From a virus: 64,000 bases of DNA. Position numbers and translations under genes: made by a program. Location: positions 1 through 64,000 of IMG/VR virus record IMGVR_UViG_3300048033_001554. One strand, written 5' to 3'. Positions 1,709 to 28,851 of this stretch are shown in pieces; position 1 is the stretch's first letter, and every line of letters begins with the position of its first letter. The notes beneath the pieces are model-generated. The model was not told the origin of the DNA. It ran no database searches and was given only the letters and a program-made list of their open reading frames with translations.

Positions 1709-4700
1709 TTATCGACCCTTCAGGTCATCAACTTGATCTTTTAGCTCCTTGATAGCTTCAACTAATAGACCAACAATGTTTCCGTATGCAACGCTCTTAA
1801 TTTGCTCACCATCAGATTCAGTCTTAACAACTTCAGGTAAGACTTCTTCAACTTCTTGAGCAATAAGACCTGTTTTTCTAACACCTGGATCAGCTTTCAT
1901 ATCAAAGTATACGCCTCTCATAGATGCAACTTTATCTAGAGCATTAGGAATTGTTTCGATATTTTCCTTCAATCTTCTATCTGAGTTAGCTGCAATGTCA
2001 CCCGCTGCAGTAAACTCGCCAGTAACCATATCAAAATCAAATCTAGTCGCAGTTGGGGATCTAAATTCAATTGCTGCTAAGTTAGCTCCGTATCCTTGCA
2101 TAACCAACGCATTTTGAGTTGAGTTATATTCAATCTTAGAGAATGGAGCTGCATTTGTACCACCTAATGTAACCGGTTGGTCTGTATTAAAGTGGAAAGG
2201 ATCTGTACCGCTTTGTGCAAAGGAGAAAGCAGATACTGTTCCTACGACATTAATATTACCTTCAACTTGAATGTTCTCAACTGTAAGTTCGTCAGCATCG
2301 TTGGTGTAGAAGAAGTTAGATTCGCCGCCTGGGTTTGGACCCAATGTAGCAAGTAGCGGACGATATTCTTGGCCACCTTCAAAGAATGGAATAAACAGTG
2401 CAGTGTCTTGCAATGGAGATTCGTGTACGTTCTGGAGGTTTTTAACACCACCTTCTGGTCCAAAGCCTTGCATACCCTGCGTACCTTGGAAACCACGTTC
2501 ACCTTGAACACCCTGTGCAGCTTGAGTACCTTGAATACCTTGTGTACCTTGGCCTGGGAAACCTTGAACACCAAGACCACCTTGGAAACCTTGAGTACCT
2601 TGTAAACCTTGTGTACCAGTACCTTCGGGTCCTTGGAAGCCTGGGCCACCCTGGATACCTTGAGCACCTTGGCCACCAGTTTCACCTAATCCACCGTCAG
2701 TACCTTGAAAGCCTTGAATACCAAAGAAACCTTGAACACCTTGAGTACCGCCAACACCCGATTCACCAATGGTACCTTGAACACCTTGGTTACCGTCGTT
2801 ACCTTGAATACCATCAGCACCGATACCCGCAGCACCTTGGAAACCTTGGGTACCTTGGTTACCAGTACCGCTAGTACCCTGTCCACCTTGGGCACCCTCG
2901 TCGCCGTCAAGACCTTGGATACCTTGAATACCAGATGTACCTTGACCCGGAAGACCTTGAACACCCTGCGAACCAATTTCACCCGTAGTACCTTGCGAAC
3001 CTTGGAAACCTTGTGTACCTTGATTACCAAATCCAGCAGGACCTGTAGTACCTTGGTTACCTTGAACACCTTGGTTTGCTACACCTTGTAGACCTTGGAA
3101 ACCTTGGATACCCGTAGCACCAATACCAGCAATACCTTGCGCACCAGATTCACCTTGTATACCTTGTGCACCTACGCCGTCTCTACCTTGGATACCTTGA
3201 ACACCTTGGATGCCTTCACCGTCAGCACCTTCGGCACCTTGGATACTTCGGCCTTGAATACCCTGTGTACCTTGTGTACCTTGAGTACCATCACCACCAA
3301 CAAAACCCGCAGAACCTTGGAAGCCCTGTAAACCTTGAATGCTTGTGCCTTGGTTACCTTGAACACCTTGGCCGCCACCGCCACCTTGGATACCACCAGG
3401 ACCTTGGAAGCCTTCAAAACCTTGAACACCTTGAGGACCAGATGGACCAACATCACCAGTTCTAGCAAAAGTAATAATAACGTCAGCATCATTAGCAAAA
3501 CCAGATACTGATCCGCTTACGAATGCTGATACAATAGTGAAGTAGCCTGAGTTTTCAGCTAAAGATGATATTGTAAAGATAGCAAAATTAGAAGGTGTAT
3601 TCTTTTCAGATACTTTATAGTGACCTTTAATTGGGCTAGTAGAATCATCAACTGTTCTTAGGAATGGCTGGATATCTGTAAAGTTATCATCACGGTCGTC
3701 CATGTACATTTCAGTAGCAGATGGCAAGTTTGAGCTATTAAACTTAAGGTAGCCAACACCAGGATCTGAAGAAACTGTATTTGTGCTGTGAGTATAATCA
3801 AATGTTACACCGCCAAATCCACCTGTTGAACCTTGGAAGCCAGGACCACCTTGTAGACCATCAGTACCTTGAATTCCTTGTGGACCAATAGGACCTGGGA
3901 AACCTTGAGTACCTTGGAAACCAAAGTCACCTTGGAAACCTTGAATACCTTGTGAACCAGCACCATCGCTACCTTGTAGACCGGCATCACCTTGTAGACC
4001 ATCCGTACCTTGGAAGCCTTGGATACCTTGGACACCTTGAGGACCTAATTCACTAGTACGAAGTTCACCACCCATTCCTGAATGAATTGAACACTGGTAA
4101 TAAAGAGTATCTGGAGCATCGCCTGGAACTCTAAATGTAATCGTTCCAACATCCACACCGTTGTTTGTAACACCAGTATTATATTGGTCAGCTGTACCAG
4201 TTGAAGGATTTGTTTTAATATAGAAAGGATGCCCCGGAGCATTTACAATAAATCTATAAGTAAATCCTTTTAGGAGATTTAAGTCAGGATTGTTGTTTCC
4301 ATCGATTACATAAGCAATTGATGAGAGGTTAGTAACATTAAAGTCACGAGCACCTTCTGTACCTTGAACTCCTTGAATACCCTGATTACCTTGGATACCT
4401 TGTACAGATTGCATACCTTGGATGCCTTGCGGTCCAAAGTCACCTTGAATACCTTGGAAGCCCTGTGCACCTTGAGTACCTGCATCACCTCTTGGAACAA
4501 AGTTAATAAGAGATTTAGCTGGGTGTCCAGTTCCAATAACACTTGTTTGCCAATTAAATGATGTTACACCATACTGGCCTACGTATTGGATTGCAAATGA
4601 GTACCAATCATCACCATAAGAGGTAACATCAGTAAATTCGTAAACAACTTGGTGGTGGCCACCAGGACCAAAACCATCGTCAAAGCTCTCAATAACAATA

Positions 4701-6844
4701 AGGCCTTTAGAACCAGATCCACCAGGAATTGCATCTAACCATTGGAATACTTCATCAACACCTGAGTTAAAGTTGTTAAGAGGTACATCGTCAATAGTTA
4801 ATAGTGTAGCACTTCTGATATCTGCGTTATTAAGTTTCCATTTACTTAAGCCAGGATCAGATCCAGGTGATTGATCGTTTAAGAATTCCCACTCATATGT
4901 TAATCCACCATAGTGACCAATTGCACCCTGTACGCCTTGGAAACCTTGAGTACCTTGGAAACCAGTTGTTCCTTGGAAACCTTGTACACCAACATCACCT
5001 TGAACACCCTGAGTACCTTGTGCTCCTTGGAAGCCTTGAATACCCTGTGTACCAACATCGCCTTGGATACCTTGTACACCTTGGAAACCCTGAGTACCTT
5101 GGAAGCCTTGAATACCTTGCGCACCTTTTTCGCCCGAAGGAATAAAGTCAACAACAGTCGTAGTTCCAAATGTAGGTACAGCACCCGATGTCCAGCTTGA
5201 TCCTGGAAGAGCATCTGTTCCGCCTAACGTAGAACTTGCAACATAAGTGATATCAAAATGGCCCCAGTCTCTACCAGTTCCTGTTGGACTCCATGTCCAA
5301 TCACTTACGTTGTATATAAGGAATTCGTAATCGTCACTACTTGTATCTTTTAAAGTCCTAAGGAAAATTTGTCCTTTTGGATTACTTAAACGGCTATCTA
5401 AGAAATCAAAAAGCTCATCAACTCGACGACCTGTTTCTGTTAAATCGTCAATGTAAAGTCTAGTTGCTGATGTAACATCGTTACTGTTAAGCAACCAACC
5501 ATTTAATCCTGGGAAACCTTCAGTAGTAGAAGGATTATATGTAAAGTTGAATGTTAGGCCACCGCTGTAGCCAATAAAGCCTTGAACACCGGTATCACCT
5601 TGAATTCCTTGAATTCCTTGGTTGCCCTGAATACCTTGAATACCTTGATGGCCTTGAGTACCTTGCATACCTTGGAAACCAGTAGTCCCTTGGAAACCTT
5701 GAACACCTTGGAAACCTCTATCACCAGCAATATTAAAATCTACTAATAGCGGGTAAGAAGTAAATGTTCCAGGCGTTGCTTCTTCGCAAAAATCTGATTT
5801 GATTGCAGCACCAGAAACAAATGCAACATCTAATTCTCTGTATCCTGTTTTATCTGTTACTTCAGTTACTGCAAAAATTACGTAATTTTGAGGAGAGCCA
5901 CGTTGAGTGACTTTCATGTATGCTTTATTTGTAGAAGAAGATGCATCAATTGCATCAAATAAGTTTTGTAGATCTACGCCATAAAATGCTTCGTTGTCTA
6001 TCCAAATCTTTGTAACAGTAGTAAAGTCATCAGTTTGAGCAGCTGCAGCATTAAAGAACATATTACCTTGAGTAGGATCTGCGTCCGCCACATTGTTTAA
6101 CAGTCTGTATTCTACTACGGAACCAGCGTCATCACCGTTGAAGCCTTGAAAACCAACATCACCTTGCACACCTTGAATACCCTGAGCGGCTTGCATGCCT
6201 TGAATACCTTGGATACCTTGCACACCTTGCAAGCCTTGGATACCCTGTACAGATTGCATACCTTGGATGCCTTGTACACCTTGGAAACCTTGAATACCCT
6301 GATTACCTTGTATGCCAATTGTACCTTGTACACCTTGAATACCTTGGTTACCACGGAAACCACGAGAACCTTGAATACCAGTTTCACCAACAACGCCTTG
6401 CGTTCCTTGGTTACCTTGAACACCTTGGAAACCTTGAACACCTCTAAAGGATCCAACGTTTACCCAAGTTGTGCCGTTATAAACCCAAAGCTCGTCATCT
6501 GTTTCGTCAATAGCACCTTGACCAGTAGTAACACTTGGAAAAGCTGTATTAAGAGTAGCTTGTGGATCTCCACCTGCATCAACATCAGCGACAGAGCCAA
6601 TAACATCAAATCCAGGACCGTAAGTACCTTGTACACCTTGGTTGCCTTGAACACCTTGAGTACCCTGTGAACCGGTTGCACCAGATCCTACATCGCTCCA
6701 AGCAGTGCCATCAGAGACATATACTCGGCCGTCAGTGCCATAAGCAATTGCACCTTTATACGGTGCTGGATCTAATTGAATAGGTACTTGTTGTGGAGTA
6801 CCCTGGCCAATAATTTTACTGCCAGCTAGAGATCTAAAAGCCAT
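1709..6844 (-). CDS. Collagen-like long tail fibre with cupredoxin insert and S74 chaperone
   Basis: 1711 residues. Long runs of Gly-X-Gln triplets (GIQ, GVQ, GFQ, GTQ) form collagen-like stalks, the longest at about residues 1130-1480. The stalks are broken by four related globular inserts (about 237-373, 428-571, 646-785, 1011-1131) that share YxxxxN and IDD signatures. A fifth, different insert at about 832-932 is cupredoxin-like, with His872, Cys918, His921 and Met924 in type-1 copper order. The C-terminus carries a peptidase S74 intramolecular chaperone: SDRRLKENIE with Ser1621 and Lys1626 as the self-cleavage dyad, then a coiled coil. S74 domains trimerise fibres and then cut themselves off. 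The gene is followed by a terminator and overlaps its upstream neighbour as TAATG. Exposed fibre at the virion surface is inferred. Confidence 0.9.
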   Translation of the reverse strand: MAFRSLAGSKIIGQGTPQQVPIQLDPAPYKGAIAYGTDGRVYVSDGTAWSDVGSGATGSQGTQGVQGNQGVQGTYGPGFDVIGSVADVDAGGDPQATLNTAFPSVTTGQGAIDETDDELWVYNGTTWVNVGSFRGVQGFQGVQGNQGTQGVVGETGIQGSRGFRGNQGIQGVQGTIGIQGNQGIQGFQGVQGIQGMQSVQGIQGLQGVQGIQGIQGMQAAQGIQGVQGDVGFQGFNGDDAGSVVEYRLLNNVADADPTQGNMFFNAAAAQTDDFTTVTKIWIDNEAFYGVDLQNLFDAIDASSSTNKAYMKVTQRGSPQNYVIFAVTEVTDKTGYRELDVAFVSGAAIKSDFCEEATPGTFTSYPLLVDFNIAGDRGFQGVQGFQGTTGFQGMQGTQGHQGIQGIQGNQGIQGIQGDTGVQGFIGYSGGLTFNFTYNPSTTEGFPGLNGWLLNSNDVTSATRLYIDDLTETGRRVDELFDFLDSRLSNPKGQIFLRTLKDTSSDDYEFLIYNVSDWTWSPTGTGRDWGHFDITYVASSTLGGTDALPGSSWTSGAVPTFGTTTVVDFIPSGEKGAQGIQGFQGTQGFQGVQGIQGDVGTQGIQGFQGAQGTQGVQGDVGVQGFQGTTGFQGTQGFQGVQGAIGHYGGLTYEWEFLNDQSPGSDPGLSKWKLNNADIRSATLLTIDDVPLNNFNSGVDEVFQWLDAIPGGSGSKGLIVIESFDDGFGPGGHHQVVYEFTDVTSYGDDWYSFAIQYVGQYGVTSFNWQTSVIGTGHPAKSLINFVPRGDAGTQGAQGFQGIQGDFGPQGIQGMQSVQGIQGNQGIQGVQGTEGARDFNVTNLSSIAYVIDGNNNPDLNLLKGFTYRFIVNAPGHPFYIKTNPSTGTADQYNTGVTNNGVDVGTITFRVPGDAPDTLYYQCSIHSGMGGELRTSELGPQGVQGIQGFQGTDGLQGDAGLQGSDGAGSQGIQGFQGDFGFQGTQGFPGPIGPQGIQGTDGLQGGPGFQGSTGGFGGVTFDYTHSTNTVSSDPGVGYLKFNSSNLPSATEMYMDDRDDNFTDIQPFLRTVDDSTSPIKGHYKVSEKNTPSNFAIFTISSLAENSGYFTIVSAFVSGSVSGFANDADVIITFARTGDVGPSGPQGVQGFEGFQGPGGIQGGGGGQGVQGNQGTSIQGLQGFQGSAGFVGGDGTQGTQGTQGIQGRSIQGAEGADGEGIQGVQGIQGRDGVGAQGIQGESGAQGIAGIGATGIQGFQGLQGVANQGVQGNQGTTGPAGFGNQGTQGFQGSQGTTGEIGSQGVQGLPGQGTSGIQGIQGLDGDEGAQGGQGTSGTGNQGTQGFQGAAGIGADGIQGNDGNQGVQGTIGESGVGGTQGVQGFFGIQGFQGTDGGLGETGGQGAQGIQGGPGFQGPEGTGTQGLQGTQGFQGGLGVQGFPGQGTQGIQGTQAAQGVQGERGFQGTQGMQGFGPEGGVKNLQNVHESPLQDTALFIPFFEGGQEYRPLLATLGPNPGGESNFFYTNDADELTVENIQVEGNINVVGTVSAFSFAQSGTDPFHFNTDQPVTLGGTNAAPFSKIEYNSTQNALVMQGYGANLAAIEFRSPTATRFDFDMVTGEFTAAGDIAANSDRRLKENIETIPNALDKVASMRGVYFDMKADPGVRKTGLIAQEVEEVLPEVVKTESDGEQIKSVAYGNIVGLLVEAIKELKDQVDDLKGR
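2470..3450. repeat. Nine-base collagen-coding repeat block
   Basis: The plus strand repeats variants of CACCTTGGA and TACCTTGAA about every 9 bases, the complement of Gly-X-Gln codons. Shorter blocks recur near 3830-4050, 4350-4480, 4920-5120, 5570-5720 and 6130-6450. The block creates long open frames in other frames on both strands, which are not genes. Confidence 0.85.
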
Positions 6845-27183: not shown

Positions 27184-28851
27184 TTAGCCGCGTCTTCTAA
27201 TACGTGGCCTTGGATACGTTGCGCCAGACGATGGCCTTGGTTTAAAATTTCTTTGTGGAAAAGTAGATCCATTTATAGCTCTTTGATTAATCCACCTTAA
27301 ATATCTATTTGGTGCTCCTTGGAGACTATTCACATCAGTTGAATCGTCAGTACCAGTATCAAACATTTGATCTATTGAAGCATTGTCAATTAACCATTGT
27401 TGAGCTTCAGCCTGTGTAATACTTGGCCAAGATTCTGCTAATAAAGCCAAGACTCCAGCTACTTGAGGTCCTGACATGCTCGTTCCTTGATATTTGTCAA
27501 AATTATAACCAGATAATCTTGGATCTGCAATATCACCAGTCCTAGCATGCACGCTACTTTGGATGGCTTCGCCCGCAGCATATATGTCTACTTGATTGCC
27601 ACAATTAGAAAACGGAGCTTTTTCTTCAGTTGTTCTATTGGACGTTGCACCAACAACAATAGCAGGTGCATAACCTGCGCCTGAACCGGTACCTTTGTTT
27701 AGTGCCCATTGTAAATTGAATCCGTTATAAGTCATGTAATATATGTTATTGAAATCTTGATCTGAAGAATTTACGATTTTCCAAGAGTCATTACCAGCAG
27801 AAGCAACTACAATAATACCATCATTCATTGCATCTTGTATATCTGCTTCTCGTGAATTAAAATAATTTGGGATGCTTGTTGTAGTAGAAGTAGCATAAAA
27901 CCCGCGAGAAGTCATTTCGTTCAATGTTAATTCTCTGCCTGGATTAAAATCAACACCTCTATAATTTACTCTGGTTACTCCACCGGTAGTATACGCATCA
28001 CTATAATTTGAAATAATAGTAGATCCATAGCTATTGTTCGTAATAGTTGGATTTCTTCTACCGGTTTCTGGATTGATTGGTTTACTGTTGTGCCAAGCAC
28101 GTATGTAGTCCCACATAACGGCACTAGAGAGACTGTTAGGGTTCGTACCGTATGGACTTATATTATAAATGTTAGCATCTCTAGCCCACCCCTGAGTGTT
28201 TCCAGCAACAGTTCCTGCGCAGTGACAACCATGATTATTATCTTCGGCATCTATAGAATTAGTGTAAGAACCAGCTCTATCATAAACGTAAGTACCATTA
28301 GCACCACCCGTTACAGCATTTGTATGTTGAAACCAATTATATTGAACTACTCTAGATCCGCCAGATCCATCAGGATTAACTGCAAACTCTGGGTGATTAG
28401 GATCTATATGTCCATCAACAATTAAAACATCTACATTTTTACCTGATGCGGTGATGGTTAAATTATCTGTTACTAGTGAAGAACCGTTGTCGCCCCAATT
28501 AGTTCTATTTGTTTCTTCGGTGTGTCTAAGCAAACCCCAGTTTAAATCACTAGCATCATCAAACCAGCTTTTATCAAATTCACCATTTGTGATAGAATAA
28601 CCATGTGGTATTGTTGTTAACTCTAAAAGCTCAGCCAAATCAACGCCAACAACTCTATCATCAGCTTTAATTAATTCTACTTCATCTAGTGTTAACATAT
28701 AATGTGTATTTCTAGAAGTAGGTCTTTTGTTTACTACGTCAACGGCTCTATCTGGAATAAACAAATTGCCACCAGGTGTTTCCATGTCTTCATAAAAAGA
28801 TTCTAAATCTTCTTTGCTACGAAGAGTAACAATCCATTCCATCAGTTCCAT
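27184..28851 (-). CDS. Subtilisin-like serine protease (peptidase S8) in the baseplate cluster
   Basis: 555 residues with a full S8 active site: Asp146 in VDVLIVDGHID, His207 in NNHGCHCAGT, oxyanion Asn354 in ASAGND and Ser458 in GTSMSGP. The first ~80 residues (MEWIVTLRSKEDLESF to RVVGVD) look like an I9-type inhibitory prodomain, implying a zymogen that cuts itself. The C-terminal ~40 residues are basic and Arg/Pro rich. No signal peptide is seen. GGAGG lies six bases before the ATG, and it is packed between the gp10-like gene (1-base gap) and gp8, so it is expressed with virion proteins. It could process baseplate or fibre proteins or degrade a host surface protein; both are inference. Confidence 0.92.
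   Translation of the reverse strand: MELMEWIVTLRSKEDLESFYEDMETPGGNLFIPDRAVDVVNKRPTSRNTHYMLTLDEVELIKADDRVVGVDLAELLELTTIPHGYSITNGEFDKSWFDDASDLNWGLLRHTEETNRTNWGDNGSSLVTDNLTITASGKNVDVLIVDGHIDPNHPEFAVNPDGSGGSRVVQYNWFQHTNAVTGGANGTYVYDRAGSYTNSIDAEDNNHGCHCAGTVAGNTQGWARDANIYNISPYGTNPNSLSSAVMWDYIRAWHNSKPINPETGRRNPTITNNSYGSTIISNYSDAYTTGGVTRVNYRGVDFNPGRELTLNEMTSRGFYATSTTTSIPNYFNSREADIQDAMNDGIIVVASAGNDSWKIVNSSDQDFNNIYYMTYNGFNLQWALNKGTGSGAGYAPAIVVGATSNRTTEEKAPFSNCGNQVDIYAAGEAIQSSVHARTGDIADPRLSGYNFDKYQGTSMSGPQVAGVLALLAESWPSITQAEAQQWLIDNASIDQMFDTGTDDSTDVNSLQGAPNRYLRWINQRAINGSTFPQRNFKPRPSSGATYPRPRIRRRG

Follow-up and report, generated by a model that had tools for sequence, protein, structure and literature searches.

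The window, a stretch of 64,000 nucleotides of viral DNA, comes from an 84 kb record of a T4-like phage and encodes a baseplate wedge of the gp6 type along with other virion proteins. The carrier is a marine virus of bacteria. Because its gp6 homologue is closest to those of the T4-like Sinorhizobium phages phiN3/phiM12 and Caulobacter phage Cr30 (35-40%), a cyanobacterial host is not assumed. An ORF of 1711 amino acids on the minus strand (1709-6844) contains 11 Pfam Collagen stretches and a C-terminal Peptidase_S74 domain and, with collagen repeats and fibre chaperone both present, is a collagen-like phage tail fibre. Its features are as follows.

1709..6844, minus strand: tail fibre ORF, 1711 aa (Pfam Collagen and Peptidase_S74; PHROG tail fibre families)
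1823..1984, minus strand: Peptidase_S74 (intramolecular chaperone) domain, aa 1621-1674 (Pfam E 1.5e-17)
3833..4042, minus strand: collagen-like stalk of G-x-Q repeats, C-terminal side of the cupredoxin-fold domain
4043..4357, minus strand: predicted cupredoxin-fold domain, aa 830-934, ~105 residues (AlphaFold2, Foldseek, profile matches to blue copper proteins)
4073..4075, minus strand: Met924 codon, predicted axial ligand (sequence and rusticyanin alignment)
4082..4084, minus strand: His921 codon, predicted copper ligand 3 (sequence and rusticyanin alignment)
4091..4093, minus strand: Cys918 codon, predicted copper ligand 2 (sequence and rusticyanin alignment)
4229..4231, minus strand: His872 codon, predicted copper ligand 1 (pairs with the His in GHSF of rusticyanin)
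4358..4489, minus strand: collagen-like stalk of G-x-Q repeats, N-terminal side of the cupredoxin-fold domain
5726-6145, 5135-5566, 4490-4936 and 3458-3832, minus strand: four related globular units (BLASTP among themselves)

The original prediction, made from the sequence of the window, placed a cupredoxin-like domain with all type-1 copper ligands between Gly-X-Gln stalks at 3850-4360. Collagen-like repeats indeed flank the globular block, aa 828-933, on each side, and the proposed range contains the domain; it also covers the downstream stalk, the domain proper being confined to 4043-4357. In the ORF translation, His872, Cys918, His921 and Met924 are all found at the residues named, with the C-x2-H-x2-M spacing of the amicyanin type. 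This motif occurs once in the fibre ORF, and the complete H...C-x2-H-x2-M pattern arose in none of 2000 whole-ORF shuffles and in 1 of 20000 shuffles of the domain. The main argument against a chance origin is comparative, namely the recurrence of the same set in divergent relatives. The fibre has two cysteines, and participation of Cys918 in a disulfide was rejected, as it is the sole cysteine of the domain; a disulfide role is also disfavoured because, in the aligned copies, 85 Cys residues fall in the ligand column and 3 in other columns. None of the 12 histidines of the fibre lies in an H-x-H motif. The four further globular units, each ~120-150 aa and located between collagen stalks, are mutually related (BLASTP E 1e-15 to 1e-4) and match no Pfam family. 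Among the window ORFs, neither a second cupredoxin-like copy nor a recognisable copper-handling gene was found; a subtilisin-like protein encoded among the virion genes (27184-28851, minus strand) is without a cupredoxin-like domain.

The fold was predicted with AlphaFold2 from an alignment of 19 relatives. A cupredoxin should form an eight-strand Greek key, as the original prediction noted, and the model, a predicted rather than a solved structure, has eight strands (pLDDT 95.9, pTM 0.87). Foldseek matched this model in the PDB to cupredoxins and multicopper oxidases, with rusticyanin first; the 50 titles listed, 2 of which do not name the protein, comprise rusticyanin, AcoP, plastocyanins, nitrite reductases, laccases, and other multicopper oxidases, and also a CuA domain that has an amicyanin loop. 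Identities are 12-22%, with moderate TM-scores of 0.47-0.64 when normalised by query length. From the model, a cupredoxin fold is predicted for the fibre domain with high confidence.

Sequence comparison points in the same direction independently of structure. A single-sequence phmmer search of the PDB with the domain gave no match, and only family profiles reached cupredoxins: a profile built from 32 phage and bacterial relatives and searched against PDB sequences matched almost exclusively blue copper proteins, including copper nitrite reductase (E 1e-5), plastocyanin (3e-4), rusticyanin (7e-4), and amicyanin (4e-3). In the rusticyanin alignment, GHPF is paired with GHSF of rusticyanin, and C, H, and M are each matched by the identical residue, so that the His...Cys-x(n)-His-x(n)-Met set stands at cupredoxin-equivalent positions. 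Fold and ligand alignment thus both favour the proposed cupredoxin-like domain with a full type-1 set, in which copper would be the expected metal. Among established families, Pfam Copper-bind (PF00127) matches 8 of the 32 relatives (best E 6.6e-5) and does not list the window domain at its cut-off; the At5g54830-like domain (PF25489) matches 11 of the 32 (best E 4.3e-9), with the window domain below the cut-off at 18 versus 27 bits; and the NCBIfam amicyanin model (TIGR02657) matches 6 relatives weakly and the window domain not at all. Because it falls below the Copper-bind cut-off and has no NCBIfam amicyanin match, we treat the domain as a cupredoxin superfamily branch that has no name and is found here in a virion setting.

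In phages, 349 records match the domain; 340 of these are named Synechococcus, Cyanophage, or Prochlorococcus, the others including marine single-cell and Pelagibacter records; further phage copies are present in BFVD, and plasmids gave no match. It corresponds to the C-terminus of PHROG 677, annotated gp9 in cyanophages, and the gp9 proteins of P-SSM4, P-SSM7, S-RIM8, ACG-2014b, and S-B64 carry all ligands (5/5 read). At 4 of these 5 loci the following gene encodes a second copy that matches more weakly but has the same ligands, a divergent domain with H...C-x2-H-x2-M (E 0.0002-0.006). Elsewhere, the stalk-domain-stalk layout of the window fibre recurs in PSSM2_028 of P-SSM2, the domain lies near the N-terminus of a protein in two Prochlorococcus podoviruses, and it ends a subtilisin-like protein in S-H9-1. 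In the 45 kb of P-HM2 that was read (60000-105000), three ligand-complete copies are present: PHM2_106 has two of them, and gp7, the baseplate wedge initiator, has the third. The whole genome of P-SSP7 contains none. Carrier proteins are labelled tail fiber, baseplate connector, or hypothetical in the sequence records. The domain is a module found commonly in virion proteins of marine phages, and the window fibre belongs to this large, unnamed family.

Relatives are also encoded on bacterial chromosomes. In Bacteroidota, chromosomal genes carry the domain in 11 of 296 genomes sampled, the seed genome counted. They include secreted versions, single-domain ORFs that are short and lipoprotein-like, and one protein with a collagen-like region; all Bacteroidota copies read are ligand-complete, at identities down to about 30%. 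One Bacteroidetes gene (L231, 4945-6273), flanked by an NADH dehydrogenase-like and an Ffh-like gene, combines a collagen-like region with the domain, and the pairing is therefore not confined to phages. Furthermore, small proteins described as 'beta-sandwich protein' in Pithovirus and Marseillevirus assemblies (BFVD A0A481Z6J5, A0A481Z7Q7, and A0A481YVH3) match the model over most of their length.

Across 92 non-redundant copies (<75% identity), 83 keep H and C-x(2-4)-H-x(2-4)-M, 3 keep the first His only, and 6 keep neither part, in a sample biased toward ligand-bearing copies because part of it was collected with the C-H-M pattern. To get around this bias, a search was performed with a consensus probe whose ligand positions had been blanked, used as a search string only; 13 of the 19 non-redundant copies recovered are complete, 5 lack both parts, and 1 is partial. 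With 6 of 19 copies incomplete, the fold may therefore exist without the site. Ligands are retained in the loop-length variants C-x3-H-x2-M and C-x2-H-x3-M. In 32 diverse rows only the four ligands and one Tyr are invariant, partly by choice, since the rows are mostly ligand-selected; once degenerate copies are added, the ligands are no better conserved than several structural residues. Joint loss of the ligands is suggestive: the Fisher test (p 1e-7) was discounted, as only about four changes are required on the tree. Sub-branches without some or all ligands keep the rest of the sequence pattern, and some of them are tandem degenerate copies in one ORF.

These losses bear on whether the site binds metal at all. 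Phages use Ig-like domains as generic adhesion or spacer modules, and the cupredoxin β-sandwich might have been borrowed likewise, its ligands kept by ancestry or packing with no metal bound, as the ligandless copies and the equally conserved structural residues would allow. This reading is unlikely, because the free Cys, both His, and the Met are kept together in highly divergent proteins and through changes of loop length, and because the model of a ligandless subfamily failed at a pLDDT of 48 from four sequences and is uninformative on whether such copies keep the fold.

From the observed sequence, conservation, and family relationship, the domain is instead probably a copper-binding cupredoxin-fold knob with a complete type-1 set, carried on a trimeric fibre and serving structure and adhesion. 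A trimer is inferred because it is usual for collagen-like fibres with an S74 chaperone, and each fibre would then have up to three metal sites. The domain may form a rigid knob between the collagen-like stalks, with the bound metal stabilising and shaping a host-facing domain for structure and adhesion. A non-enzymatic knob is the most likely form; the domain is probably not an electron carrier. Phage proteins fold in the cytosol, where free copper is scarce, which counts against copper loading, as does the lack of a recognised copper-handling gene among the window ORFs; most likely copper is acquired passively after the protein's exit from the reducing cytosol. The family as a whole is modular: in phages it is spread across proteins of adhesion and of the baseplate, and it has secreted relatives in Bacteroidota.

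The place of synthesis also raises the question of which metal is bound. Cupredoxins expressed in the bacterial cytosol can be found with zinc, and since tail proteins are made there and the window has no recognised copper chaperone, a real site might be filled with zinc, or with a different soft metal, during assembly in the host cytosol and be purely structural. We consider this quite unlikely, as copper sites are where a ligand set with Met belongs and the relatives found by sequence are copper proteins.

An active role for copper is very doubtful, whether as a copper version of the Trojan-horse idea proposed for iron in fibres or as a redox-sensitive trigger of attachment. Placement of the domain in fibres and gp9 would suit it, and iron on HxH fibres has been published together with a receptor hypothesis (PMC11705849). 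P-HM2, reported to be unable to adsorb in the dark, differs in copy number from P-SSP7, which infects in the dark (PMC7112961); however, these two phages belong to different families and the comparison is confounded, so that the contrast is a lead and not evidence. The domain, moreover, also occurs outside cyanophages, in Bacteroidota and, judged by gp6, in the window phage, and no receptor or redox partner is known. It is highly improbable that copper-loaded domains in the fibres and baseplates of common ocean phages switch attachment in a copper- or redox-dependent manner and contribute to light-dependent cyanophage adsorption.

In the open-licence papers searched, no description of the domain as a cupredoxin was found, nor anything relevant on cupredoxin, plastocyanin-like, or copper-binding domains in tail fibres or cyanophages. 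Should copper be bound, virions would be copper carriers in seawater, the host-contact proteins of hundreds of sequenced marine phages would contain a metal site, and the iron-in-fibres idea would extend to copper. Even without copper, a widespread and unannotated virion domain gains a fold and a family. As the family is common in the ocean, copper on the parts of phages that touch the host becomes a testable question.

Among known systems, T4 gp37 has metal on a tail fibre (PMC11705849); its iron is held between chains via HxH, whereas the window fibre, free of HxH, has a predicted mononuclear site within one domain. Rusticyanin and AcoP, the Acidithiobacillus cupredoxins that give the best PDB fold matches, are soluble periplasmic electron-transfer proteins with a longer ligand loop and about 16-20% identity to the domain. 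Amicyanin shares the C-x2-H-x2-M spacing and is found by the family profile; it is a stand-alone electron carrier, and the window domain does not match its NCBIfam model. The secreted or lipoprotein-like cupredoxin domains of Bacteroidota belong to the same family and have all ligands, with L231 also collagen-linked, but these are chromosomal genes with other partner domains, some of them short single-domain ORFs. Cyanophage gp9 (PHROG 677, baseplate wedge tail fiber connector) has a ligand-complete domain at its C-terminus, without a collagen stalk and in the baseplate rather than the fibre. PSSM2_028 of P-SSM2, annotated as tail fiber-like only, differs in its 560-residue frame and its C-terminal part, and shares with the window fibre the collagen-domain-collagen order, all ligands, and 56% identity over the domain.
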